Assembly (NCBI RefSeq): GCF_022662105.1 | Contig: NZ_JAKMCP010000003.1 | Coordinates: 682,001 to 746,000 of the forward strand | Length of the DNA stretch: 64,000 nucleotides | From: Aestuariivivens sediminis | GTDB lineage: Bacteria; Bacteroidota; Bacteroidia; Flavobacteriales; Flavobacteriaceae | Direction: 5' to 3' | In this document: positions 12,914-50,248 of the stretch, piece after piece | How positions within the stretch are numbered: the stretch's first letter is position 1 | Layout: each line of letters starts with the position of its first letter | Made by a program: the position numbers and the translations under genes | Notes under the pieces: model-generated | What the model was told of the DNA's origin: nothing | Database searches by the model: none | Seen by the model: the letters and a program-made list of their open reading frames with translations, nothing else

Positions 12914-14653
12914 TTAACCATTCAAAGCCTCTCTCTTCATTTTAATGGCATCGACATAGCGCTTAAGTTGTTTTTTCACCACGGGCATTAACAAATATAA
13001 TCCTACCATATTAGGGAACACCATAGCAAAAATCATGGCATCTGAAAAATCCCAAATGGATTTCATACTTGCAGCGGCCCCTATAACTACGAAGGTTAAA
13101 AATAAAATCTTATAGGTTAGGTCAGCTTTTTTACCTCTTCCAAAAAGAAATTTCCATGATTGAAGTCCGTAATACGACCAAGAAATCATCGTTGAAATGG
13201 CAAACAGGAACACCGCTATGGTTAAGAAAATTTTTGAGTAGGGTATATATTCATGAAATGCAATGGATGTAATTCCTGCACCTTCGTAGGCCACACCGTC
13301 AATAAAGACAGAACCAGAGCCATCTCCACCATATTCAAAAAAGCCCCCAAAGTTAAAAATAACAATTACTAAAGCGGTCATCGTGCAAATAACAACGGTA
13401 TCGATAAATGGCTCTAATAAGGCAACCAACCCTTCACTAGCTGAGTATTTAGTTTTTACTGCGGAGTGAGCTATTGAAGCTGAACCAGCACCTGCTTCGT
13501 TAGAAAAAGCCGCACGTTTAAATCCTACCAAAAGAACTCCTATAACACCACCCACTCCAATAGCTTTGGGATTGAATGCTTCATTTACAATTAAGGCAAT
13601 AGCATCGTCAAGTAATGAGAAATTACTAAAAATGATATACAGACAACATATAATATACAGGACTGCCATGAAAGGCACTATTTTTTCAGTTACTGAAGCA
13701 ATCCTTTTGATTCCACCAATAATTATTATACCCACTAAAAACGCAATAACCAAACCTATTACAGTACCAGCCATAGTACTTTCAAGACCTAAAAGCTCCT
13801 TAACAACAATTGTTGCCTGATTGGATTGCGCCGCATTACCACCACCAAAAGAACCTCCAATACAAAAAATGGCAAACAGCACTGCTGCAATTTTACCCAA
13901 TGTTTTAAATCCTTTTTCCTTAAGTCCTTTGGTTAAATAATACATGGGTCCACCATAAACAGTACCATCTTCACCAACGTCTCTGTAATGAACCCCTAAG
14001 GTACACTCGACAAATTTAGTTGACATTCCAAGGAGTCCACAAATTATCATCCAAAAGGTAGCTCCAGGTCCTCCCAAGGCGATAGCCAAGGCCACACCCG
14101 CAATATTTCCATTCCCTACGGTTCCAGATACAGCGGTTGCCAATGCCTGAAAGTGAGAAACCTCACCATGGGAACTTTCATCCCTAATAGTCTCCTTAAT
14201 ATCACCATCTATCTCGAGATCACTGTGCAGGCTCTCTATATTCTCTATATGTTCCTCAATATCATCTACCTTGTTAATATCCTGACCTTGAGCAATACCG
14301 TCCTCACCATACAGAATTTTTGCTCCATGCTTCTCTATATCCTCATATTTTCCTCTTACTACATTTATGGCAGTCCAAAAATGTCTAAAATTGGGGAATT
14401 TAAAATAGAGTGTAAAAAACGCCGCACTAAAAACCAACAGCAGTAAAACAAATGGTATATAAATCTGGATCTTCTGTCCGTCAACAATTAATTCGTGTTG
14501 GTAAATAGGGAAAAAAATAACATTTGAAAAAAAATCTGAAATTGGTTTAAAAGCTTCATCTATTCGTTGATCTATACCTTTGTTGACTGTTTCCTGGGCA
14601 AATGTAAGTATCGGCAAAATGATTGCTATAATAGGCAGAAGAAATTTTTTCAT
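12914..14653 (-). CDS. Alanine/glycine:cation symporter (AGCS family)
   Basis: Inner-membrane Na+-coupled amino acid transporter. Its 579 residues exceed the roughly 450-500 of the family. The N-terminus has a signal-like segment (LLPIIAIILPILTFA) and a hydrophilic insertion at about residues 105-165 (EKHGAKILYGEDGIAQGQDINKVDD and on), rich in acidic residues and placed inside an otherwise membranous region. Family motifs follow, such as ATAVSGTVGNGNIAGVALA, GGPMYYL and RAAFSNEAGAGSA. The acidic insert is the odd feature; long AGCS members are common in Bacteroidota. The substrate is probably alanine or glycine. Confidence 0.93.
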   Translation of the reverse strand: MKKFLLPIIAIILPILTFAQETVNKGIDQRIDEAFKPISDFFSNVIFFPIYQHELIVDGQKIQIYIPFVLLLLVFSAAFFTLYFKFPNFRHFWTAINVVRGKYEDIEKHGAKILYGEDGIAQGQDINKVDDIEEHIENIESLHSDLEIDGDIKETIRDESSHGEVSHFQALATAVSGTVGNGNIAGVALAIALGGPGATFWMIICGLLGMSTKFVECTLGVHYRDVGEDGTVYGGPMYYLTKGLKEKGFKTLGKIAAVLFAIFCIGGSFGGGNAAQSNQATIVVKELLGLESTMAGTVIGLVIAFLVGIIIIGGIKRIASVTEKIVPFMAVLYIICCLYIIFSNFSLLDDAIALIVNEAFNPKAIGVGGVIGVLLVGFKRAAFSNEAGAGSASIAHSAVKTKYSASEGLVALLEPFIDTVVICTMTALVIVIFNFGGFFEYGGDGSGSVFIDGVAYEGAGITSIAFHEYIPYSKIFLTIAVFLFAISTMISWSYYGLQSWKFLFGRGKKADLTYKILFLTFVVIGAAASMKSIWDFSDAMIFAMVFPNMVGLYLLMPVVKKQLKRYVDAIKMKREALNG

Positions 14654-14750: not shown

Positions 14751-15773
14751 CTAATCTATATCATAAGTAGAATTTAAGGCTTCTATTTGCTCTGGACGAC
14801 CTAAAACAATAATTTTAGAATTTATCGCTAACTCTAATTCTGCTTCAGGATTAACAATATATTCCCCATTTTCATCCTTGTACCCTATAACGGTACAACC
14901 GGTTTTTTTCCTCAAATCCAAATCCTTAATGGTTTTAACGGATTTACCAGAGTATAATTTTTCCACTGCCACTTCTTCTATATTGATATTATTTTTACCC
15001 ACTATAGAAAGGTTGTCTATAAACTCCATCAAACCGGGAACCACCACCAGGGAGGCCATATGACTACCTCCTATGTTATCGGGCAGTATCACATTATTGG
15101 CTCCGGCAAACTTAAGTTTATCATAAGACGATTCATTTGAAGCACGACTTATTATATTAATAGTCTTATTTATTTGTCTTGTGGATAACACAACAAATAA
15201 ATTATCTGCATCATTAGGGAGGGCCGAAATAAAATTTGAAGCCCGATCAATACCAGCACGAATCAATACCTCATCTTCATTGGCATTTCCAATAATATAG
15301 GGTACATTATCCATCTGTAATCGCTCTTCCATATCTCTATTTTTCTCGATAACCACAAATGCCTTTTTATGTGCCATTAATTTTTTAACCGCCTGTTTAC
15401 CATTTCGCCCATAACCGCAAACCACAACATGGTTTTTAAAGCCATCTATTTTTTTTTGCATCTTCTTAAGTTTTAATTCTTCAATATCATTTTTACTTAA
15501 AATATATTCTGTGATCACTGATAAAGCATACCCGACAATAACCACACTTGCCAATATTAAAAATATTGTAAATATTTTAGATTCCTGATCCAGTGGGACC
15601 ACTTCACCAAATCCAACTGTGGTCATGGTAATTACCGTCATATAAAGGGCATCGATCCAAGAGTAGTTAGATATCATCATAAATCCTATGATGCCAATTA
15701 ACATAATCAATACCAATAAAAATAAAGCTGTATATATTTTGGTCCTAAAAAAACGTATTAATGGATTTGTCAT
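14751..15773 (-). CDS. Two-TM potassium channel with RCK (TrkA-N/TrkA-C) domain
   Basis: The 340-residue protein has two transmembrane helices (about 14-35 and 66-90) flanking a pore loop with the filter TVGFGE at 52-57. A cytoplasmic RCK domain with a nucleotide-binding motif (VVVCGYGRNGKQ, about 116-127) and a TrkA-C domain follow. This is the MthK-like/VIC prokaryotic channel layout, gating K+ flux in response to a ligand such as Ca2+ or nucleotide. It ends 5 bases from the PspC gene upstream on the same strand, suggesting an operon. Confidence 0.93.
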   Translation of the reverse strand: MTNPLIRFFRTKIYTALFLLVLIMLIGIIGFMMISNYSWIDALYMTVITMTTVGFGEVVPLDQESKIFTIFLILASVVIVGYALSVITEYILSKNDIEELKLKKMQKKIDGFKNHVVVCGYGRNGKQAVKKLMAHKKAFVVIEKNRDMEERLQMDNVPYIIGNANEDEVLIRAGIDRASNFISALPNDADNLFVVLSTRQINKTINIISRASNESSYDKLKFAGANNVILPDNIGGSHMASLVVVPGLMEFIDNLSIVGKNNINIEEVAVEKLYSGKSVKTIKDLDLRKKTGCTVIGYKDENGEYIVNPEAELELAINSKIIVLGRPEQIEALNSTYDID

Positions 15774-17872: not shown

Positions 17873-20496
17873 CTTAAACTGGCTAAACTAGCCTTAAGGG
17901 TTTCTATTTTTGCCAGGGCATCGGCTTCTTTCTTCTTTTCATTTGCAACAACTTGTTCTGGTGCATTATTTATAAATCGTTCATTGGAGAGTTTCTTTTG
18001 AACAGATTGAAGGAAGCCTTTGGTATAATTCAATTCTTCTGTTAGCTTTTGAATTTCTAAATCGATGTCTATAGATCCTGGTGTGGGAATAAAATATTCG
18101 TTAGACTTCACCCTAAATGTTAAAGATCCTTCAACCGCCTGAGTCACATAATCAATAGAATCCAGATTACCTAACTTGATAAGTATTGGGTCTAGCAATA
18201 TACTAGTGTTTTCATTATTAATCACAGCAAACGCAATAGCGTCTTTAAACGCAATATTTTTCTGTTTTCTTATTGTACGTATGCCGGAAATAACTTCGGA
18301 AGCAAAATCAAATGCTTGAATTATATCCTCATTTACTGGCTTACTTTTTGGCCATTGTGCTATAATTAATGCTTCTTTTGGAGAACGCTTCGTTATGCAC
18401 TGCCAAATTTCTTCTGTGAGGAAAGGCATAAAAGGATGCAATATTTTTAAGTTATTCTCTAAGATGGTTATGATTGCATTATATGTCGTTTGGTCTATAG
18501 GTTCTCCAAATTCAGGTTTTATCATTTCTAGTAACCATGAACAGAAGTCGTTCCAAATTAATTTATAAGTCTCCATTAAGGCATCGCTTAACCTATATTT
18601 ATTAAAGTGATCTTCAATGGTCGTTAACGTCTTGTGGAATTTATTATCAAACCATTGCAATGCAATTTTGGCATGTTCTGGTTGTTCCATATCCTTTATT
18701 TCCCATCCATTTATCAACCTGAAGGCATTCCAGATTTTATTGGAAAATGCTTTTCCTTGTTGGCATAACGACTCATCAAATGGTAAATCATTACCGGCCG
18801 GAGAACACATTAACATTCCAACGCGCACCCCATCAGCTCCATACTGATCCATTAATTCAATGGGATCTGGGGAATTACCCAATGATTTACTCATTTTGCG
18901 TCCTTTTTTATCGCGAACTATTCCTGTAAAATACACATTTTTGAAAGGGAATTCACCACGATACTCATAACCGGCAATAATCATACGAGCAACCCAAAAA
19001 AACATAATTTCCGGAGCTGTTACTAAATCATTTGTTGGGTAGTAGTATTTTATTTCCTCATTTTCCGGGTGTCTAATGCCATCAAAAACACTAATTGGCC
19101 ATAACCAGGAGGAAAACCATGTATCCACGACATCAGATTCCTGTTTGAGATCGGAGTGGGATAAATCAGAATTGCCAGTAGCTAACTTTGCTAACTGTAA
19201 AGCTTCATCCATGGATTTGGCCACAACAAAATCGTTTACTCCATCACCAAAATAATATGCCGGAATTTGATGTCCCCAATATAACTGACGTGATATGTTC
19301 CAATCCCGAACATTTTCCATCCAATTTCTATAGGCATTTTTAAATTTCTTGGGATGAAATTCTATGGTATCATCCATGACGTTTTCTAATGCTGGTTTGG
19401 ACAGGTCCTTCATCTTTAAAAACCACTGTATAGAAATTTTTGGTTCGATAATGGCATTTGTTCGTTCGCTGGTTCCGACTTTATGGGTATAATCTTCGGT
19501 TTTTACCATAACACCTAAATCTTCCAGTTCCATGGCTATTTTCCTTCTTGCTAATTCCCTATCCATTCCCTCATAATGCAGTCCATAATGATTTAAGGTA
19601 GCATCATCGTTTAAAATGTCAATTACTTCTAAATTATGGCGTTCTCCTATGTCCTTATCATTGACATCATGTGCAGGTGTAATCTTTAAGCATCCCGTAC
19701 CAAATTCCATATCCACGTAATCGTCTTGAATTATGGGTACCACACGATTACAAATTGGCACTACAACTTTTTTACCCTTTAATTTTTTAAAACGCTCATC
19801 CGAGGGATTAACACAAACTGCAGTATCGCCCAAAATAGTTTCTGGTCTTGTCGTAGCTATGGTGAGATATTGATCTTCTCCTTCAATTTTATATTTGACG
19901 AAGTAAAGTTTATCGGTTCTTTCAATATAAATAACCTCTTCATCAGAAAGTGTTGTTTTTGCTTTGGGGTCCCAATTCACCATTCGATATCCACGATAAA
20001 TTAATCCTTTCCTGTACAAATCAATAAAAACGTCAATAACGGATTCGGACAAATCATCGTCCATAGTAAACTTTGTACGCTCCCAATCACACGAACAACC
20101 CAATTTTTTAAGTTGTTCTAAAATAATACCACCATGTTTATGAGTCCAATCCCAAGCATGCTTTAAAAAGGTCTCTCTTGAAATATTTGCTTTGTCTATT
20201 CCCTCACTTTTAAGTTTATCAACTACTTTAGCCTCGGTAGCAATAGATGCATGGTCTGTACCGGGAACCCAACACGCGTTAAAACCCTTTAACCTAGCAC
20301 GTCTAATTAAAACATCCTGTAAAGTATTATTAAGCATATGCCCCATATGCAAGACTCCGGTAACATTTGGTGGTGGAATCACTATAGTATATGGCTCTCT
20401 ATCATCTGGTGTAGAATGGAAATAATGGTGTTTCATCCAGTAATCATACCATTTACCTTCTATCTTACTTGCATCATATTTTGACGGAATTTGCAT
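17869..20496 (-). CDS. valS: Valyl-tRNA synthetase
   Basis: Charges tRNA-Val. I chose the ATG at 20496 (MQIPSKYDASKIEGKWYDYW, 875 residues). An earlier in-frame ATG adds only MQINCQKLFQS, with a less likely start. Class I signatures HMGH (50-53) and KMSKS (534-538) are intact, as are the CP1 editing domain (ATTRPETILGDTAVCVNP), the anticodon-binding domain and the C-terminal coiled coil (from about 815) typical of ValRS. It overlaps the DUF2721 gene by 4 bases at the 3' ends. Confidence 0.97.
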   Translation of the reverse strand: MQIPSKYDASKIEGKWYDYWMKHHYFHSTPDDREPYTIVIPPPNVTGVLHMGHMLNNTLQDVLIRRARLKGFNACWVPGTDHASIATEAKVVDKLKSEGIDKANISRETFLKHAWDWTHKHGGIILEQLKKLGCSCDWERTKFTMDDDLSESVIDVFIDLYRKGLIYRGYRMVNWDPKAKTTLSDEEVIYIERTDKLYFVKYKIEGEDQYLTIATTRPETILGDTAVCVNPSDERFKKLKGKKVVVPICNRVVPIIQDDYVDMEFGTGCLKITPAHDVNDKDIGERHNLEVIDILNDDATLNHYGLHYEGMDRELARRKIAMELEDLGVMVKTEDYTHKVGTSERTNAIIEPKISIQWFLKMKDLSKPALENVMDDTIEFHPKKFKNAYRNWMENVRDWNISRQLYWGHQIPAYYFGDGVNDFVVAKSMDEALQLAKLATGNSDLSHSDLKQESDVVDTWFSSWLWPISVFDGIRHPENEEIKYYYPTNDLVTAPEIMFFWVARMIIAGYEYRGEFPFKNVYFTGIVRDKKGRKMSKSLGNSPDPIELMDQYGADGVRVGMLMCSPAGNDLPFDESLCQQGKAFSNKIWNAFRLINGWEIKDMEQPEHAKIALQWFDNKFHKTLTTIEDHFNKYRLSDALMETYKLIWNDFCSWLLEMIKPEFGEPIDQTTYNAIITILENNLKILHPFMPFLTEEIWQCITKRSPKEALIIAQWPKSKPVNEDIIQAFDFASEVISGIRTIRKQKNIAFKDAIAFAVINNENTSILLDPILIKLGNLDSIDYVTQAVEGSLTFRVKSNEYFIPTPGSIDIDLEIQKLTEELNYTKGFLQSVQKKLSNERFINNAPEQVVANEKKKEADALAKIETLKASLASLS

Positions 20497-42809: not shown

Positions 42810-43271
42810 ATGAACATAGAAAAAAGAATCCTAACTAATGCTAATTTGCCCGTTTCTAAAAAAGTCGTTGTAAATCTTTTGTTTAGTTATGGCATTATAA
42901 ATGGTAAACTAAACGACGTTCTTAAACCTCACGATATTTCAATACAGCAGTTTAACGTCCTTAGAATTTTAAGAGGACAAAAAGGAAAACCAGCTACGCT
43001 ATCATCAATCCAAGAACGGATGATAAATAAAATGAGCAACACCACAAGGTTAATTGATAAACTTATTACAAAAGGTTATGTGGAAAAGGAAATTAACAAA
43101 AACAATAAACGAAAAATTGATGTTACGATTACAAAAGAAGGGTTAAATTTTCTAAATGACATAGATATACTGATTGATAGTACTGAGCAAAACATTGTAA
43201 AAACACTCAGCAATGATGAGGCTCAAAAATTAATTCGATTGTTAGGCAAAATAAGGTTAATAGCAAACTAA
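42810..43271 (+). CDS. MarR-family transcriptional regulator
   Basis: A 153-residue winged-helix protein. The N-terminal helices and the HTH region IQERMINKMSNTTRLIDKLITKGYVEKE, with a wing KNNKRKIDVTITKEG, match the MarR family. It has no Cys in the sensor helix, so a thiol-oxidation mode like OhrR is not evident. It is divergent from the TlpA/redoxin operon and is the likely local regulator. The palindrome at 42788-42799 is a candidate operator. Confidence 0.9.
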   Translation: MNIEKRILTNANLPVSKKVVVNLLFSYGIINGKLNDVLKPHDISIQQFNVLRILRGQKGKPATLSSIQERMINKMSNTTRLIDKLITKGYVEKEINKNNKRKIDVTITKEGLNFLNDIDILIDSTEQNIVKTLSNDEAQKLIRLLGKIRLIAN

Positions 43272-43295: not shown

Positions 43296-43325
43296 AAAAC
43301 TACCATACTTGTGTGGTAGTTTTTT
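43296..43325 (+). terminator. Intrinsic terminator of the marR gene
   Basis: AAACTACCA and TGGTAGTTT pair around an 8-base loop, followed by a T-run, about 25 bases after the marR stop. It isolates marR from the trp promoter. Confidence 0.85.
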
Positions 43326-43357
43326 TATTAAAGGACATAAAAAAACGCCTTTAATTA

Positions 43358-43388
43358 TTGTGTAATTATTTTTTCATGTCTATATTTG
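43358..43388 (+). promoter_or_regulatory. trp operon promoter
   Basis: TTG (43358-43360), 20 bases, then TATATTTG (43381-43388) match the Bacteroidota promoter pattern. Transcription should begin near 43392-43396, about 15 bases before the leader peptide. Confidence 0.75.
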
Positions 43389-43409
43389 AGCCATTAAAAA
43401 CAAAAACGG

Positions 43410-43457
43410 TTGAATACTTTTTTAAATAATACTTGGTGGTGGTGTTTTCGAAACTAA
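43410..43457 (+). CDS. trpL: trp operon leader peptide
   Basis: A 15-codon ORF starting with TTG reads MNTFLNNTWWWCFRN and ends at TAA (43455-43457). It carries three consecutive Trp codons (43434-43442). It lies between a consensus promoter and an intrinsic terminator, directly before trpE. TTG starts are common in this window, which supports the start. No in-frame ATG is available. This is the expected sensor element for ribosome-mediated attenuation. Confidence 0.75.
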   Translation: MNTFLNNTWWWCFRN

Positions 43458-43528
43458 ATTTCGTGAAGTAAACCTAGTATATTTAAAACTAAAAATATAA
43501 ATAAGGCTTGTCATTCACGACAAGCCTT
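43458..43528 (+). promoter_or_regulatory. trp attenuator: antiterminator and terminator
   Basis: AAGGCTTGTC (43503-43512) and GACAAGCCTT (43519-43528) form a perfect 10-bp terminator stem with loop ATTCAC, then a T-run. TCGTGAA (43461-43467), just after the leader stop codon, is complementary to TTCACGA (43514-43520), so it can compete with the terminator. A ribosome paused at the Trp codons would leave TCGTGAA free. A ribosome at the stop codon would cover it. The pairing is seen. The mechanism is inferred by analogy with classic trp attenuation. Confidence 0.75.
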
Positions 43529-43585
43529 TTTATTTGTTTAGAACACGTTTATTAAATAAAACCCAGATACTGAAATAAATTCAGC

Positions 43586-44992
43586 ATGATGAAAACTTTT
43601 AATTTATTTACACATTACAAAAAAATACTTGCAGATACGATAACTCCTGTAAGCATCTATTTAAAAATTAGAGATAAATTCCCTAATAGTATTTTATTGG
43701 AAAGTAGCGATTACCATGCTAATGATAATAGCTTTTCCTACATTTGCTTTAATCCTATAGCTTCAATAAAGGTTGAAAACGACATTATTTCGCAAACTTT
43801 TCCAGATGGAAATCATACGAGTATTCCAATAAATGAGCAGACAAATGTTACCGAAGTAATTCATGAGTTCACACAGCAATTTCAAACAAATTCAGATGAA
43901 CAATTTAAGTTCATTAACAATGGTATATTTGGCTATTTAGCTTATGATGCCGTAAGGTATTTTGAAGATATACACATTGCTAAAAAAGAGGGCTCCTTGC
44001 AAATACCGGATGTGTATTACGCTGTTTACAAAAACATTATTGCTATTAATCATTATAAAAACGAAGCTTATATTTTTGCTCATTGTTATGACACTGAAAA
44101 CAATATTGATGAAATAGATCATTTAATAAAAGTAAAAAATTATGCCTCATACAATTTCACTTCTAAGGGCCCTATTGAATCCAACCTAACTGATGCTGAA
44201 TTTAAAAACCATGTTGAACTTGCAAAAAAACATTGTGGGCGTGGTGATGTCTTTCAATTGGTACTTTCCAAAAGTTTCAATCAACATTTTAAAGGTGACG
44301 AATTTAATGTTTATCGCGCACTGCGTAACATAAATCCTTCACCATATCTCTTTTATTTCGATTATGGTAATTTTAAGATTTTTGGTAGCTCACCAGAAGC
44401 CCAACTGATTGTTAGCAATGGGAAAGCAGAGATACATCCGATAGCTGGAACCTTTAGAAGGACCGGAAATGACATTAAGGATGCAGAGCTAGCACAGCAA
44501 TTGACCAAAGATGACAAGGAAAATGCAGAGCACGTCATGTTGGTCGATCTCGCTCGTAATGACTTGAGTAGGCATGGGAATAATGTCACTGTAGACACCT
44601 ATAGAGAGGTTCAGTTTTTCTCCCATGTGATTCATCTGGTTAGTAAAGTTACTGGCAAAAAACACATCAACACCTCAACCATGCAAGTTGTTGCAGACAC
44701 TTTCCCCGCCGGCACCTTAAGTGGTACACCAAAGCATAGAGCAATGCAACTTATTGAGCAATATGAAAAAACAAGTCGTACTTTTTACGGAGGCGCCATT
44801 GGCTTTATGGATTTTAAGGGCAATTTTAATCATGCCATTATGATTCGTACTTTTTTAAGTAAAAACCACAGACTGCATTGGCAAGCAGGAGCTGGATTAG
44901 TATCAAAATCAAAACCAGAAAATGAATTGCAAGAAGTATATAACAAATTAGGGGCTTTAACAAAAGCCATAAAACTAGCGGAGGAGATTTAA
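43586..44992 (+). CDS. trpE: Anthranilate synthase component I
   Basis: Converts chorismate to anthranilate with the TrpG glutaminase. It has 468 residues. The chorismate-binding signatures SPYLFYFDYG, SSPEAQLI, HPIAGTFRRTG, DKENAEHVMLVDLARNDLSR, DTFPAGTLSGTPKHRAM and AGAGLVSKSKPENE are all present. The first ATG (43586) is followed at once by a second, so either may start it. It opens the trpEGDCFBA operon and lies behind the attenuator. p-Aminobenzoate synthase PabB is unlikely given the complete trp context. Confidence 0.96.
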   Translation: MMKTFNLFTHYKKILADTITPVSIYLKIRDKFPNSILLESSDYHANDNSFSYICFNPIASIKVENDIISQTFPDGNHTSIPINEQTNVTEVIHEFTQQFQTNSDEQFKFINNGIFGYLAYDAVRYFEDIHIAKKEGSLQIPDVYYAVYKNIIAINHYKNEAYIFAHCYDTENNIDEIDHLIKVKNYASYNFTSKGPIESNLTDAEFKNHVELAKKHCGRGDVFQLVLSKSFNQHFKGDEFNVYRALRNINPSPYLFYFDYGNFKIFGSSPEAQLIVSNGKAEIHPIAGTFRRTGNDIKDAELAQQLTKDDKENAEHVMLVDLARNDLSRHGNNVTVDTYREVQFFSHVIHLVSKVTGKKHINTSTMQVVADTFPAGTLSGTPKHRAMQLIEQYEKTSRTFYGGAIGFMDFKGNFNHAIMIRTFLSKNHRLHWQAGAGLVSKSKPENELQEVYNKLGALTKAIKLAEEI

Positions 44993-44994
44993 AT

Positions 44995-45561
44995 ATGGCA
45001 AAAGTATTAGTTATAGACAATTACGACAGTTTTACCTATAATCTTGTACATTATTTAGAAGATTTAAACTGTGAGGTCACTGTATTAAGAAACGATAAGT
45101 TAATACTAGAGGATGTAAGACCATTTGATAAAATTGTATTATCACCTGGTCCGGGTATTCCAGATGAAGCCGGTCTGTTAAAGCCTATCATTAAAACCTA
45201 CGCTTCAACCAAAAGTATTTTAGGAGTATGTCTTGGCCAGCAGGCCATTGGAGAAGTATTTGGGGGATCACTGGTAAATTTAGAGGAGGTGTATCATGGT
45301 GTGGCAACCAAAGTTAACATTTGTGTTGAGGATGAAATTTTATTCAGAGGATTGGCGAAAAGCATAGATGTTGGTCGGTATCATTCATGGGTAGTTCATC
45401 CAGATTTACCAGATGTTTTGGAAGCCACTTCTTTTGATGAAAATGGGCAAATTATGTCTTTACGTCATAAAACTTATGATGTTAAAGGGGTGCAATATCA
45501 TCCAGAGTCGGTATTAACACCTGGAGGAAGGCAAATTTTAGAAAACTGGGTTAAACACTAA
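44995..45561 (+). CDS. trpG: Anthranilate synthase component II (glutamine amidotransferase)
   Basis: Supplies ammonia from glutamine to TrpE. It has 188 residues with the class I amidotransferase triad: Cys79 in GVCLGQQAIGE, and the His/Glu in VQYHPESVLTPGG. The typical IDNYDSFTYNLV N-terminus is present. It follows trpE after 2 bases and precedes trpD by 2 bases. In many bacteria this subunit also serves PabB. Sure. Confidence 0.96.
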   Translation: MAKVLVIDNYDSFTYNLVHYLEDLNCEVTVLRNDKLILEDVRPFDKIVLSPGPGIPDEAGLLKPIIKTYASTKSILGVCLGQQAIGEVFGGSLVNLEEVYHGVATKVNICVEDEILFRGLAKSIDVGRYHSWVVHPDLPDVLEATSFDENGQIMSLRHKTYDVKGVQYHPESVLTPGGRQILENWVKH

Positions 45562-45563
45562 TC

Positions 45564-46556
45564 ATGAAACAATTACTTAATAGGCTTATAAATCATGAAA
45601 GCATCTCCACAGAAGAAGCTAAACAGGTATTGGTAAACATTTCCAATGGTATGTATAACCAAAGTCAAATAGCCTCATTTCTTACGGTATTTATGATGCG
45701 TAGCATTACCATTGAGGAATTAAAAGGGTTCAGAGAAGCGCTATTGGAGCTTTGCATTCCAATCGATTTAAAAAACTTTAATGCTATTGATTTATGTGGT
45801 ACCGGTGGTGACGGCAAAGACACTTTTAACATTTCCACGTTGGCTTCCTTTGTAACTGCTGGTGCCGGTGTTAATGTTGCAAAGCATGGAAATTATGGTG
45901 TATCCTCAGCTTGTGGATCTTCAAATGTCATGGAATATCTTGGTATTAAATTTTCAAATAATGAAGATTTCTTAAAGCGTTCTATAGATCAAGCAGGGAT
46001 TTGTGTATTACATGCTCCATTATTTCACCCAGCTATGAAAAATGTTGCTCCAATTAGAAGGGAATTAGGTGTAAAAACCTTTTTTAACATGTTGGGGCCC
46101 ATGGTAAACCCATCATTTCCCAATAACCAATTGGTAGGTGTTTTTAATTTAGAACTGCAACGTTTGTATGGTTATTTATATCAGCAAACTGATAAAAATT
46201 ATAGTATTGTACACGCATTGGATGGTTATGATGAAATTTCCCTTACCGGTAAAGCCAAAATCATTTCAAACCAGGCAGAAACCATGTTTAATGCAGACGA
46301 TTTGGGTATCCAGGAAATCCAACAAGAAGAGATATTTGGTGGTAAAACCGTTGAAGATGCTGCTAAAATATTCATTACTGTAATTAGTGGTAAAGGAACG
46401 GAAGCACAAAACAACGTGGTGTGTGCCAATGCGGGGTTAGCCATTGCTACAACCATGCAAACTACTCACAAAGAGGGGTTTGAATTGGCTAAACAATCTT
46501 TGCTTTCCGGAAAAGCTAAAACCAGTCTAGATAAATTGATTGAATTGAGTAAGTAA
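45564..46556 (+). CDS. trpD: Anthranilate phosphoribosyltransferase
   Basis: Joins anthranilate to PRPP. It has 330 residues with the glycine-rich LCGTGGDGKDTFNIST loop, the KHGNYGVSSACGSSNVMEYLG stretch and RRELGVKTFFNMLGPMVNP. It starts 2 bases after trpG and ends 15 bases before the preferred trpC start. Length and motifs are normal for the family. Confidence 0.97.
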   Translation: MKQLLNRLINHESISTEEAKQVLVNISNGMYNQSQIASFLTVFMMRSITIEELKGFREALLELCIPIDLKNFNAIDLCGTGGDGKDTFNISTLASFVTAGAGVNVAKHGNYGVSSACGSSNVMEYLGIKFSNNEDFLKRSIDQAGICVLHAPLFHPAMKNVAPIRRELGVKTFFNMLGPMVNPSFPNNQLVGVFNLELQRLYGYLYQQTDKNYSIVHALDGYDEISLTGKAKIISNQAETMFNADDLGIQEIQQEEIFGGKTVEDAAKIFITVISGKGTEAQNNVVCANAGLAIATTMQTTHKEGFELAKQSLLSGKAKTSLDKLIELSK

Positions 46557-46571
46557 TTGACGTATTGTAAA

Positions 46572-47357
46572 GTGAATATATTAGATAAGATAACATCAGA
46601 TAAATACAAGGAAGTTGCCCTTAGAAAGCAATTAATCCCAACTCGACAATTGGAGCAATCCGTTTTATTTCAAAGAGCAACGGTTTCGTTGTCAAACAAA
46701 CTAAAAAATAGCAACACTGGTATTATTGCAGAACACAAACGACGTTCCCCATCTAAATCAATTATCAATAATAATTTAGACGTTTTTGAAGTGGCGAAAG
46801 GTTATGAAAATGCCGGAGTCTGTGGTATGTCTGTTCTTACCGATGGCAAATATTTTGGAGGGTCATTGGATGACCTGCTACATGCACGTGCCAGTATTAA
46901 TCTGCCTATACTACGTAAAGAATTTATTATAGATGAATACCAAATCCTTGAAGCAAAAGCCTACGGTGCAGATGTTATTTTACTGATTGCTGCTATTTTA
47001 AATAAGAACGAATTAAAGTCCTTTTCAGAGTTTGCAAAACGCTTAAAATTAGATGTTCTTTTAGAAGTACACAATGAAGAAGAATTGCACAAATCCCTAT
47101 TGTCCAGTGTGGATATGTTGGGTGTGAACAACAGGAACCTAAAAACATTCGATGTAAGTTTAGATACCAGTAAAGCATTAAGTAAATTGATTCCGGACGA
47201 TTTTATAAAGGTTTCTGAAAGTGGTATTAGTAACATTACTGCTATTAAAGAATTAAAAGACTATGGCTATCAAGGCTTTTTAATAGGAGAAAACTTTATG
47301 AAAACTGATGATCCGGGGTATAGTGCTAAAATATTTATACATAATTTAGAAAATTAA
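46572..47357 (+). CDS. trpC: Indole-3-glycerol phosphate synthase
   Basis: Closes the indole ring from CdRP. I chose GTG at 46572 (MNILDKITSDKYKEVALRKQ, 261 residues), matching family N-termini. A TTG at 46557 abuts the trpD stop and would add five residues, MTYCK. Active-site motifs are visible: IIAEHKRRSPSK, LRKEFIIDEYQI, LLEVHNEEEL, VNNRNLKTFDV and ESGISNITAIKEL. A stand-alone TrpC, not fused to TrpF. Confidence 0.94.
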   Translation: MNILDKITSDKYKEVALRKQLIPTRQLEQSVLFQRATVSLSNKLKNSNTGIIAEHKRRSPSKSIINNNLDVFEVAKGYENAGVCGMSVLTDGKYFGGSLDDLLHARASINLPILRKEFIIDEYQILEAKAYGADVILLIAAILNKNELKSFSEFAKRLKLDVLLEVHNEEELHKSLLSSVDMLGVNNRNLKTFDVSLDTSKALSKLIPDDFIKVSESGISNITAIKELKDYGYQGFLIGENFMKTDDPGYSAKIFIHNLEN

Positions 47358-47432
47358 AATGATGACAAATGCGATTGTGAAATCTCATCATGAGAGTTCA
47401 TTTTCCCCATCATTATACAATAAGAAAGAAGA
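47358..47432 (+). other. trpC-trpF spacer with hairpin
   Basis: The gap between trpC and trpF is 75 bases, longer than elsewhere in the operon apart from trpF-trpB. It contains a 7-bp inverted repeat (ATGATGA and TCATCAT, from about 47360 to 47392). No U-tract follows, so it may be an mRNA processing or stability hairpin. Nothing more is visible. Confidence 0.4.
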
Positions 47433-48143
47433 ATGAAACTAAAGATTTGTGGCATGAAATATGAGGTCAATATTGAAGACGTTGCTTCGTTGCAACCCGA
47501 TTATCTTGGTTTTATATTTTACGAAAAATCGGCAAGATATTTTGATCGTGAAATCCCAAAACTTCCATCTTCAATAAAAAAAGTCGGGGTTTTTGTAGAC
47601 CCTAATTTAGATTTTGTTATTGAAACTATTAACAAACATGATCTCCAGGCTGTGCAATTGCATGGTAATGAATCGCCTGCTTTTTGTGAGCAATTAAAAT
47701 TATATGGTCAATCCGAAGAAACTGCCTTTACTGCAGACAGAGATAGCCAAATCATAAAAACACATACCCAACTAAATCGAGTCCAGGATGACCACCAGAT
47801 TGAAATTATTAAGGTGTTTTCTATAAAAGATGAATTTAATTTTGAGGTTTTATATCCTTACGAAACCGTATGTGATTATTATTTATTCGACACTAAGGGT
47901 AAATTACCCGGAGGAAATGGCTATACCTTTAATTGGAATGTTTTAACCCAGTATCCTTCTCATAAACCGTTTTTTTTAAGCGGTGGTATTGGACTTAATG
48001 AAGTTCCAAGTGTCTTGTCATTTTTAAGTAAAAAAGAATCCAAATATTGCTATGCCATTGATGTGAATAGTAAATTTGAAATTGAGCCAGGATTAAAGAA
48101 TTTGGAATTCTTGAAAGAGTTTAAAAACAATATTATTAACTGA
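47433..48143 (+). CDS. trpF: Phosphoribosylanthranilate isomerase with insertion
   Basis: Isomerises PRA to CdRP in tryptophan synthesis. It has 236 residues, 20-35 longer than most. Cys6 in KICGMK and the Asp in DTKGKLPGGNG (about 153) are the catalytic pair. The extra residues lie at about 91-123 (after QLKLYGQ, up to HQIEIIKVFS), a polar, low-complexity-like stretch that replaces a short loop in the barrel. The insertion is visible. Whether it matters is unknown. Confidence 0.93.
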   Translation: MKLKICGMKYEVNIEDVASLQPDYLGFIFYEKSARYFDREIPKLPSSIKKVGVFVDPNLDFVIETINKHDLQAVQLHGNESPAFCEQLKLYGQSEETAFTADRDSQIIKTHTQLNRVQDDHQIEIIKVFSIKDEFNFEVLYPYETVCDYYLFDTKGKLPGGNGYTFNWNVLTQYPSHKPFFLSGGIGLNEVPSVLSFLSKKESKYCYAIDVNSKFEIEPGLKNLEFLKEFKNNIIN

Positions 48144-48260
48144 AGTGAAGTATGAATAGTGAAATCAATTACAGATTTTTACAATAAAAAATAAATGTCT
48201 CATTGGCACATTTCTGATTGATGATATGCCAAACAAAGTAATGATAATAATATCAAGAAT

Positions 48261-49442
48261 ATGAACTACAATGTAAACGAAAAAGGTTATTATGGTGAAT
48301 TTGGCGGGGCATATATTCCCGAAATGTTGTATCCGAATGTAGAAGAGCTTCGTCAAAACTACTTAAAGGTAATGGCAGAGCCCCAATTTCAGAAATCGTT
48401 TAACCAACTCTTAAAAGACTACGTTGGTCGCCCGTCGCCATTGTATTTTGCTAAGCGTCTTTCGAAAAAATATAATACCAAAATTTATCTTAAACGGGAA
48501 GATCTTAACCATACTGGAGCACACAAAATAAATAATACCATTGGGCAAATCTTAATGGCCAAGCGTTTAGGAAAAACACGAATTATTGCTGAAACAGGTG
48601 CAGGACAACATGGTGTTGCTACTGCTACCGTATGTGCATTAATGGGAATGGAATGTATCGTGTATATGGGAGAAATAGATATTGCCAGACAAGCACCCAA
48701 TGTAGCGAGAATGAAAATGTTAGGGGCTACTGTTATTCCTGCAACCTCAGGAAGTAAAACCTTAAAAGATGCAACCAATGAAGCCATACGGGATTGGATC
48801 AATAATCCCGTAAATACCCATTACATTATAGGGTCGGCCATTGGACCACACCCCTATCCAGATATGGTAACCCGCTTTCAAGCTGTCATTTCGGAAGAAA
48901 TAAAATGGCAACTTAAGGATCAAGAAAACCGTGAGTATCCGGATTATGTGGTGGCTTGTATTGGTGGGGGTAGCAATGCCGCAGGCCTCTATTATCATTT
49001 TTTACACGAAGCATCGGTAAAAATTATAGCCGTCGAGGCAGCTGGTTTAGGCATAGATTCCGGTGAAAGCGCCGCTACATCAGTCCTTGGAAAAGAAGGC
49101 ATTATTCATGGTTGTAAGACATTGCTGATGCAGACCAATGATGGACAAATAACAGAACCTTACTCCATTTCGGCTGGATTAGATTATCCGGGTGTAGGAC
49201 CAATGCATGCCCATCTATATAAAACAGGTCGCGCTGAATTTATGTCCATAACAGATGACGAGGCCATGAAAGCAGGTTTAGAATTATGCCAACTTGAAGG
49301 TATTATCCCAGCAATAGAAAGCTCGCACGCCCTGGCCATTTTCGAACAAAAAACGTTTAACCCCCATGATATAGTCGTAGTTAGTTTATCAGGGCGTGGT
49401 GATAAGGATTTGCAAAATTATATTGAATATTTTAAAATTTAA
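48261..49442 (+). CDS. trpB: Tryptophan synthase beta chain
   Basis: PLP enzyme that joins indole and serine. It has 393 residues. The PLP lysine is K89 in LNHTGAHKINN, and GRPSPLYFA, the AETGAGQHGVATA loop and GGGSNAAG phosphate loop are intact. It is separated from trpF by 117 bases with no identifiable gene, and from trpA by 41. It is the TrpB1 type that works with TrpA. Confidence 0.97.
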   Translation: MNYNVNEKGYYGEFGGAYIPEMLYPNVEELRQNYLKVMAEPQFQKSFNQLLKDYVGRPSPLYFAKRLSKKYNTKIYLKREDLNHTGAHKINNTIGQILMAKRLGKTRIIAETGAGQHGVATATVCALMGMECIVYMGEIDIARQAPNVARMKMLGATVIPATSGSKTLKDATNEAIRDWINNPVNTHYIIGSAIGPHPYPDMVTRFQAVISEEIKWQLKDQENREYPDYVVACIGGGSNAAGLYYHFLHEASVKIIAVEAAGLGIDSGESAATSVLGKEGIIHGCKTLLMQTNDGQITEPYSISAGLDYPGVGPMHAHLYKTGRAEFMSITDDEAMKAGLELCQLEGIIPAIESSHALAIFEQKTFNPHDIVVVSLSGRGDKDLQNYIEYFKI

Positions 49443-49483
49443 GGTCATTTCAAACATTAATAGAAATCATATTTTGCAGCGCT

Positions 49484-50248
49484 ATGAATCGTATTCAAAC
49501 TAAATTAAAAGAAGACAAAAAGTTACTATCCATATACTTTACAGCGGGTTTTCCCAAGCTTAACGACACCGTTTCCATCATTCAAAGCTTAGAACACAAT
49601 GGTGTTGACCTAATCGAAATTGGCCTACCATTTAGTGACCCTCTTGCTGATGGTCCGATCATACAAGACAGCTCTACCCAAGCTTTGAAAAATGGCATGT
49701 CCACCGAAATTCTTTTCAATCAGCTAAGCGGTATTAGAAAATCGGTTTCCATACCTTTAATCATAATGGGCTATTTTAATCCCATGTTACAATTTGGCGT
49801 AGAGGCATTCTGTAAAAAATGTCAAGAAATTGGAATAGATGGATTAATTATCCCCGACCTGCCCATTGATGTATATGACGAGGAATATCGATCTACATTT
49901 GAAAAATATGGGTTAATCAATGTGTTTTTAATTACCCCTCAAACTAGTGACCAACGTATAAAATACATAGATTCCATTTCAAATGGTTTTATTTATATGG
50001 TAAGTAGTGCAAGTACCACTGGGGCCAAGTCAGGATTTGGCAAGGAACAAACCGATTACTTTGGGCGTATTGCAGAATTAAACTTAAAAAATCCTCAAAT
50101 TGTAGGCTTTGGCATTAGCAACAATCCAACGTTTACACAAGCTACTCAATTTGCTAAGGGCGCCATAATTGGTAGTGCCTTCGTGAAACATTTAACAGAT
50201 CATGGAACAAGTGCCATTTCAGAATTTATTAAGGAAATTACAGGCTAA
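49484..50248 (+). CDS. trpA: Tryptophan synthase alpha chain
   Basis: Cleaves indole-3-glycerol phosphate. It has 254 residues, with catalytic Glu45 in LIEIGLPFSDP and Asp56 in PLADGP. The loop GFIYMVSSASTTGAK and GFGISN are typical. It is the last gene of the trp operon. A weak 7-bp inverted repeat (TAAACTT 50246-50252, AAGTTTA 50278-50284) lies in the 42-base convergent gap to the FtsX-like gene. Confidence 0.97.
   Translation: MNRIQTKLKEDKKLLSIYFTAGFPKLNDTVSIIQSLEHNGVDLIEIGLPFSDPLADGPIIQDSSTQALKNGMSTEILFNQLSGIRKSVSIPLIIMGYFNPMLQFGVEAFCKKCQEIGIDGLIIPDLPIDVYDEEYRSTFEKYGLINVFLITPQTSDQRIKYIDSISNGFIYMVSSASTTGAKSGFGKEQTDYFGRIAELNLKNPQIVGFGISNNPTFTQATQFAKGAIIGSAFVKHLTDHGTSAISEFIKEITG

Follow-up and report, generated by a model that had tools for sequence, protein, structure and literature searches.

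In Escherichia coli, the trp attenuator combines tandem Trp codons, a leader stop codon and alternative antiterminator and terminator structures into a sensor of ribosome position. Closer to the locus described here is the Bacteroid-trp element (RF01692), a family published by Weinberg et al. 2010 (PMC2864571); a paper from 2019 (PMC6414381) mentions this element upstream of trp in Flavobacterium psychrophilum and likens it to the leader of E. coli.

We analysed a window of 64,000 nucleotides from Aestuariivivens sediminis. Positions 43358-43528 of the window contain a Bacteroidota-type promoter, a 15-codon leader ORF and a terminator directly before trpEGDCFBA (Table 1); the trpE record nearest to that of the window is from Aestuariivivens (88% identity), followed by records from other flavobacteria. 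RF01692 matches positions 43390-43512 with 60.4 bits, and trpE, G, D, C, F, B and A lie downstream of the match. Because this score is above the cut-off (gathering score) of 49, the locus is of a known kind and not a new one. The Phe_leader model RF01859 resembles the locus in its leader-type terminator and overlaps it weakly, with 24.7 bits against a cut-off of 55, and the locus is not a member of that family; all other weak Rfam matches at the locus were likewise below their cut-offs. In total, the RF01692 match, the trp genes recognised by Pfam downstream and a folding switch in the nascent RNA make a complete ribosome-mediated transcription attenuator of the trp operon, as claimed in an initial annotation of this DNA, the best reading of the locus, and we consider this prediction very probably correct. 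The positions given in that annotation for the region, including those of the antiterminator element (E) and its apical partner, all proved right when the sequence was reread.

Table 1. Coordinates of the predicted features of the trp leader region and operon in the window.
Feature	Coordinates	Strand	Sequence or composition	Basis or position
Promoter	43358..43388	+	-33 TTG (43358-43360), 20-nt spacer, -7 TATATTTG (43381-43388)	Motif in close leaders
Leader peptide ORF, TTG start	43410..43457	+	LNTFLNNTWWWCFRN followed by stop; 15 codons plus stop	Sequence; similar peptide in relatives
Stem A, 5' strand	43420..43437	+	TTTTAAATAATACTTGGT	Minimum-energy fold; RF01692 structure line; swap test
Three tandem Trp codons (TGG)	43434..43442	+	TGGTGGTGG	Sequence and alignment
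Antiterminator element E	43461..43467	+	TCGTGAA	18 nt past last Trp codon, 3 nt past stop
Stem A, 3' strand	43472..43488	+	ACCTAGTATATTTAAAA	Minimum-energy fold; RF01692 structure line; swap test
Intrinsic terminator	43503..43534	+	AAGGCTTGTC-attcac-GACAAGCCTT and T-rich tail	Terminator scan and covariation
Apical partner of E	43514..43520	+	TTCACGA	Terminator loop and first two bases of 3' arm
Regulated operon trpE, G, D, C, F, B, A	43586..50248	+		ORFs and Pfam matches

The region 43380-43535 had a folding z of -3.44, with 1 of 200 shuffles equally stable. Moreover, the 3.93-Mb genome contains the pattern TGGx3-N{12,40}-TCGTGA-N{30,60}-TCACGA a single time and the reversed control pattern 0 times. 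The locus has a short tandem-Trp ORF that is kept in relatives, as well as a terminator between this ORF and the first gene. Comparison and folding further indicate an antiterminator that is conserved and gated by the ribosome, with the stalled and the stop-codon states differing in the expected way and the no-ribosome state standing apart less clearly. Altogether, the predicted promoter, tandem-Trp leader ORF, stem A, E and the terminator with an E-complementary apex are established by comparison.

The locus shares with RF01692 the leader region, stem A, an inner helix and the start of the terminator, and the two are homologous as judged by the covariance model. Unlike the locus, the model stops in the 5' arm of the terminator, and its structure line contains no pairing between E and the apex. 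The likeness to E. coli is one of plan: in E. coli the antiterminator is longer and takes the 5' arm of the terminator, whereas in the window it engages the loop of the terminator and the adjoining end of the 3' arm, in at most 7 bp. The relatives search covered 60 genomes; RF01692 was detected at E<=1e-3 in 31 of them, including that of the window, and in 29 of 36 relatives of the same genus or the same family; the seven of these 36 relatives in which there was no match at this threshold are G006, G007, G015, G023, G025, G026 and G028. Among 395 genomes drawn from the phylum, 42 contain a match at E<=1e-3, and 35 of these 42 belong to the family of the window (Flavobacteriaceae). What the analysis adds is evidence in favour of the antiterminator, of its constant spacing from the Trp codons and of its indifference to frame, as well as evidence of the spread of the system through the class.

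For the comparison of leaders, 250 loci (L002-L251) and the window were collected, and 235 of them passed the leader-plus-terminator rule. The 16 that failed are L020, L031, L046, L050, L061, L154, L155, L163, L170, L184, L188, L203, L213, L214, L225 and L238, of which L046, L050 (on a cut contig) and L061 are without TGGTGG. The close set consists of 139 leaders including the window, 134 of them distinct, and 77 of the 139 are from named trpE records whose family was not confirmed singly. In a MAFFT alignment of 42 leaders, E is shifted in L021, L029 and L150, and the 3' strand of stem A is gapped.

E was placed in leaders by searching the stretch after the Trp codons for complementarity to the terminator apex. 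In all 134 distinct close leaders it begins 17-22 nt beyond the last Trp codon, and it forms at least six contiguous pairs with the apex in 124 of them and five in the remaining 10. The initial annotation had placed E just past the leader stop codon; this is true of the window, while the distance that is conserved is the one from the Trp codons and not the one from the stop codon, relative to which E starts at -9 to +12 among the close leaders. In these 134 leaders, the stop codon comes ahead of E in 18, shares bases with it in 82 and is found beyond it in 34. Because the same bases are read in varied frames or are untranslated, E is constrained as RNA and not as peptide. From the comparison of leaders we conclude that E is conserved as RNA and that its position follows the Trp codons, not the stop codon. 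This is the geometry one would expect of a leader in which E has to be just exposed by a ribosome stalled on the Trp codons and covered by one that completes the ORF. Outside the family, 85% of leaders have a best E-apex helix that begins +9 to +21 nt past the last Trp codon, compared with 26% of shuffles.

The RF01692 consensus puts E in the inner helix and ends in the 5' arm of the terminator, and attenuation might be read from this structure only, with stem A and the inner helix competing indirectly with the terminator and E being kept for the inner helix and not for pairing with the terminator. We regard this explanation as improbable, since E and the apex change together across families and since, in the 42 aligned sequences, the seven E-apex pairs are standard in 91.0% compared with 16.7-51.8% for slid versions. 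The inner-helix and E-apex pairings may nevertheless both be real, as alternative states. The initial annotation had advised a search for compensatory changes. These were found in the terminator (at five of ten pairs) and, for E and the apex, outside the family, whereas among close relatives the E-apex signal is thin: changes on both sides were present in two cells of the 42-sequence alignment, and the covariation score of this alignment was not above that of shuffles, 194 of 500 of which reached it. The signal is thin there because E and the apex are nearly invariant among close relatives.

Outside the family, the E-apex helix reached p<=0.05 in 39 of 88 leaders and p<=0.01 in nine of 88, as judged against dinucleotide shuffles of each leader's own segment. 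Because the other 49 of the 88 individually fall short of p<=0.05, the plan is supported for the group and not for each member. With a single leader drawn from each family, p<=0.05 was reached by a mean of 14 of the 28 families, and by 10 in the poorest of 1000 draws. When apices were swapped across families in a set of 85 of 93 leaders, from which same-family copies with equal apices had been removed, the leader's own E-apex pair was in the top 5% for 28 of the 85. A permutation based on energy, in which base composition is uncontrolled, agrees with the swaps: the mean for own pairs was -17.9 compared with -13.6 kcal/mol, and 0 of 5000 permutations were as low. Examples of E and apex in single leaders are GAACAGC with GCTGTTC (L228), CGGGGTTCT with AGAACCCCG (L223), GGGATGA with TCATCCC (L196), TTGAATCGG with CCGATTCAA (L195) and, with one G-U pair, AGCAGTAGGC with GCCTACTGTT (L247). 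That E and apex differ this widely outside the family and still match is strong evidence for the predicted pairing, and the pairing of TCGTGAA with TTCACGA that had been proposed for the window is thus well supported both by its conserved position and by the cross-family changes. In the 36 best cases, the apical partner of E consists of the 5' arm and loop (19), the loop and 3' arm (8), the 5' arm alone (5) or an arm-to-arm stretch across the loop (4). In leaders using the 5' arm, E pairing and the terminator exclude each other more plainly than they do in the window.

The close leader L020 has AAGTGAG in place of TCGTGAG, and its terminator region contains TTCACTG, which looks like a compensatory change; as L020 fails the terminator rule, the counts do not include it.

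Because the MAFFT alignment gaps its 3' strand, stem A was assessed by swaps rather than by pair counts. Among close relatives, the mean for own strands was 13.04 compared with 11.67 for swapped strands, with 8 of 42 leaders in the top 5% and p = 0.12 for the window; outside the family, the corresponding means were 14.43 and 11.64, with 18 of 88 leaders in the top 5%. Examples are GTAAATAAT with ATTATTTAC in L228 and GCATGTACATA with TGTGTATATGC in L215. Support for the predicted stem A is, therefore, modest among close relatives and better outside the family.

The leader of the window reads TTG-AAT-ACT-TTT-TTA-AAT-AAT-ACT-TGG-TGG-TGG-TGT-TTT-CGA-AAC-TAA. An in-frame TAA at 43395-43397 makes the TTG at 43410-43412 the sole ATG, GTG or TTG start of this ORF, which ends with the TAA at 43455-43457, and the peptide in Table 1 is the reading with the first codon as start. 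Thus, the TTG-started leader with three tandem Trp codons proposed for the window is present. In the alignment of trpE leaders that the initial annotation had suggested, the first two Trp codons are invariant across the 42 sequences and the third is kept in at least 90%; moreover, TGGTGG is present upstream of trpE in 77 of 80 named close records. As a feature of the system the TTG start did not hold up: the RF01692 consensus has AUG where the window has UUG, and an in-frame ATG at most 12 codons before the Trp codons is present in 130 of the 134 distinct close leaders, the four TTG-only leaders being those of the window, L027, L049 and L072. L032 has TTG at the position of the TTG of the window, with ATG as the next codon. 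These sequences mark TTG as a local change that is scattered among the leaders and does not characterise the system. TTG usually initiates less well than ATG. With an in-frame ATG missing in just these four leaders, the leader of the window might be degenerate, i.e. ATG has become TTG, translation is poor and the operon responds poorly to tryptophan. We consider this very unlikely, since L027, L049 and L072 retain the Trp codons, E and the terminator, as does the window, and since TTG is a normal bacterial start.

A scan of the locus for sigma-70 promoters was uninformative and was set aside because Bacteroidota promoters have a consensus other than that of sigma-70. The -33 TTG and -7 TAnnTTTG, which we take to be the promoter consensus of Bacteroidota, are found where a promoter had been proposed upstream of the leader, and TAnnTTTG is present 20-110 nt 5' of the Trp codons in all 138 distinct close upstream segments, compared with 8% of mononucleotide-shuffled segments; in 119 of the 138, a further TTG lies ~16-26 nt 5' of it. 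The terminator stem, annotated beforehand as 10 bp with a T-run, is formed by 43503-43512 and 43519-43528 with a 6-nt loop and a T-rich tail, and it covaries in the 42 sequences: every cell is paired, both sides have changed at the five pairs mentioned above, and 0 of 500 shuffles scored as high. That the hairpin is a plain, tryptophan-unresponsive terminator between the upstream gene and trpE, as the terminator-like site predicted on both strands here might suggest, is scarcely credible given the promoter-like site 5' of the leader in all 138 segments, the conserved Trp-codon leader and the concerted change of E and apex.

The attenuator reading predicts a fold that depends on the ribosome. 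Nascent RNA was folded from an assumed start at 43394 to successive 3' ends while assumed ribosome footprints were masked. With the Trp codons masked, the six inner E-apex pairs had probabilities of 0.96-1.0 at ends 43520-43524, and the outermost pair had 0.71-0.86. With the stop-codon region masked, the E-apex pairs had a probability of 0 and the terminator had begun by 43522, which supports the earlier proposal that a ribosome at the stop codon masks the antiterminator directly. In the RNA without a ribosome, the E-apex helix also formed at 43520-43522 (most pairs 0.90-0.99) and yielded at 43524, and there was a clear difference from the stalled state only at 43518 and 43524. Because the helix forms without a ribosome too, folding does not clearly predict termination for the untranslated state, which it separates only weakly from the stalled one. 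By end 43526 the terminator has taken the lead, and by 43530 it prevails whatever the ribosome state.

As isolated helices, the antiterminator has -7.4 and the terminator -15.0 kcal/mol; because the isolated duplex is weaker than the finished terminator, the antiterminator would have to act kinetically. RNA polymerase hides about the last 14 bases of the RNA, and therefore the RNA outside the enzyme at the T-tract would end near 43520-43524, just where folding tells the stalled state from the stop-codon state. The apical partner of E consists of the final 5 nt of the terminator loop and the initial 2 nt of the 3' arm, and therefore pairing with E would directly remove just the top two pairs of the stem. 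The initial annotation had advised folding the leader to look for mutually exclusive structures. The ribosome states switch the predicted nascent fold, while antiterminator and terminator share just two stem pairs and the loop, and the terminator wins in the finished RNA; as E covers two of the ten terminator pairs, a basal stem of ~8 bp might coexist with E pairing.

We propose that, when charged tRNA-Trp is scarce, the ribosome would stall on the Trp codons, hold stem A open and leave E free; E would then capture the terminator loop and the beginning of its 3' arm before the hairpin zips, and the polymerase would read through into trpE. When Trp is plentiful, the ribosome would reach the stop codon and cover E, and the terminator would form at once.

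trpE was recognised at E<=1e-60 in 127 of the 395 genomes, the other 268 being left out, and 100 of the 128 trpE places were sampled; 99 of these regions are from other Bacteroidia families and one (L219) is from the window's own family. A leader-type arrangement, in which a short ORF containing clustered Trp codons precedes a terminator, was found within the last 640 nt before trpE in 86 of the 100 regions, compared with two of 100 on the opposite strand and 0 of 500 dinucleotide shuffles, and leader and terminator were found in 89 of 100 when the whole fetched stretches were considered. Of 40 regions hand-picked for spread from the 100 and scanned with Rfam, one (L222) reached the cut-off of a leader family. 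With 86 of 100 regions having leaders but one of 40 exceeding an Rfam cut-off, the attenuator seems to be much commoner than RF01692 shows. These observations suggest that trp attenuation by leader peptides is usual in Bacteroidia with a recognisable trpE. We lean towards the wider view that most Bacteroidia trp operons follow a common attenuator plan, largely outside the present Rfam models, in which the antiterminator would be a ~6-10 bp capture of the terminator apex by an element ~9-21 nt (a ribosome length) past the Trp codons, whatever the reading frame, and would act only while the terminator is being made. In the open-licence literature, with subscription journals mostly uncovered, we found no account of trp attenuators being this common in the class; Lopatovskaya et al. 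2010 reportedly deal with attenuation across bacteria and may already treat Bacteroidota.

These observations provide a testable mechanism for RF01692, for which no description of the antiterminator was found in the accessible parts of PMC2864571 and PMC6414381. Attenuation needs the ribosome and the polymerase to move together, and therefore these leaders are natural tests of coupling. Such tests are of interest in a phylum that is mostly without Shine-Dalgarno sequences.

In L222, L224 and L237, the leader lies ~1.4 kb 5' of trpE, and another gene therefore appears to be first in the operon. L140 and L141 (G418:C22 and G434:C6) have an RF01692-type leader, MKAQILNNNWWWLNENS followed by a stop, with 46.5 and 48 bits, just below the cut-off. 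These leaders precede a trpD gene with 70% identity to trpD of the window, and in both genomes trpE lies elsewhere with its own Trp leader (L199 and L198, respectively), giving two trp attenuators per genome.

Elsewhere in the window, an inverted repeat followed by a T-run (AAAAACTACCA...TGGTAGTTTTT, 43298-43327) was noticed by eye 3' of the ORF at 42810-43271, of which it may be the terminator; it is absent from the output of the terminator scan, and the protein encoded by this ORF has no Pfam match at 1e-10. Finally, three further TGGTGGTGG runs are present in the window, at 13839-13847 (-), 15041-15049 (-) and 20368-20376 (+), giving four runs in all compared with 0.28 expected from shuffles.
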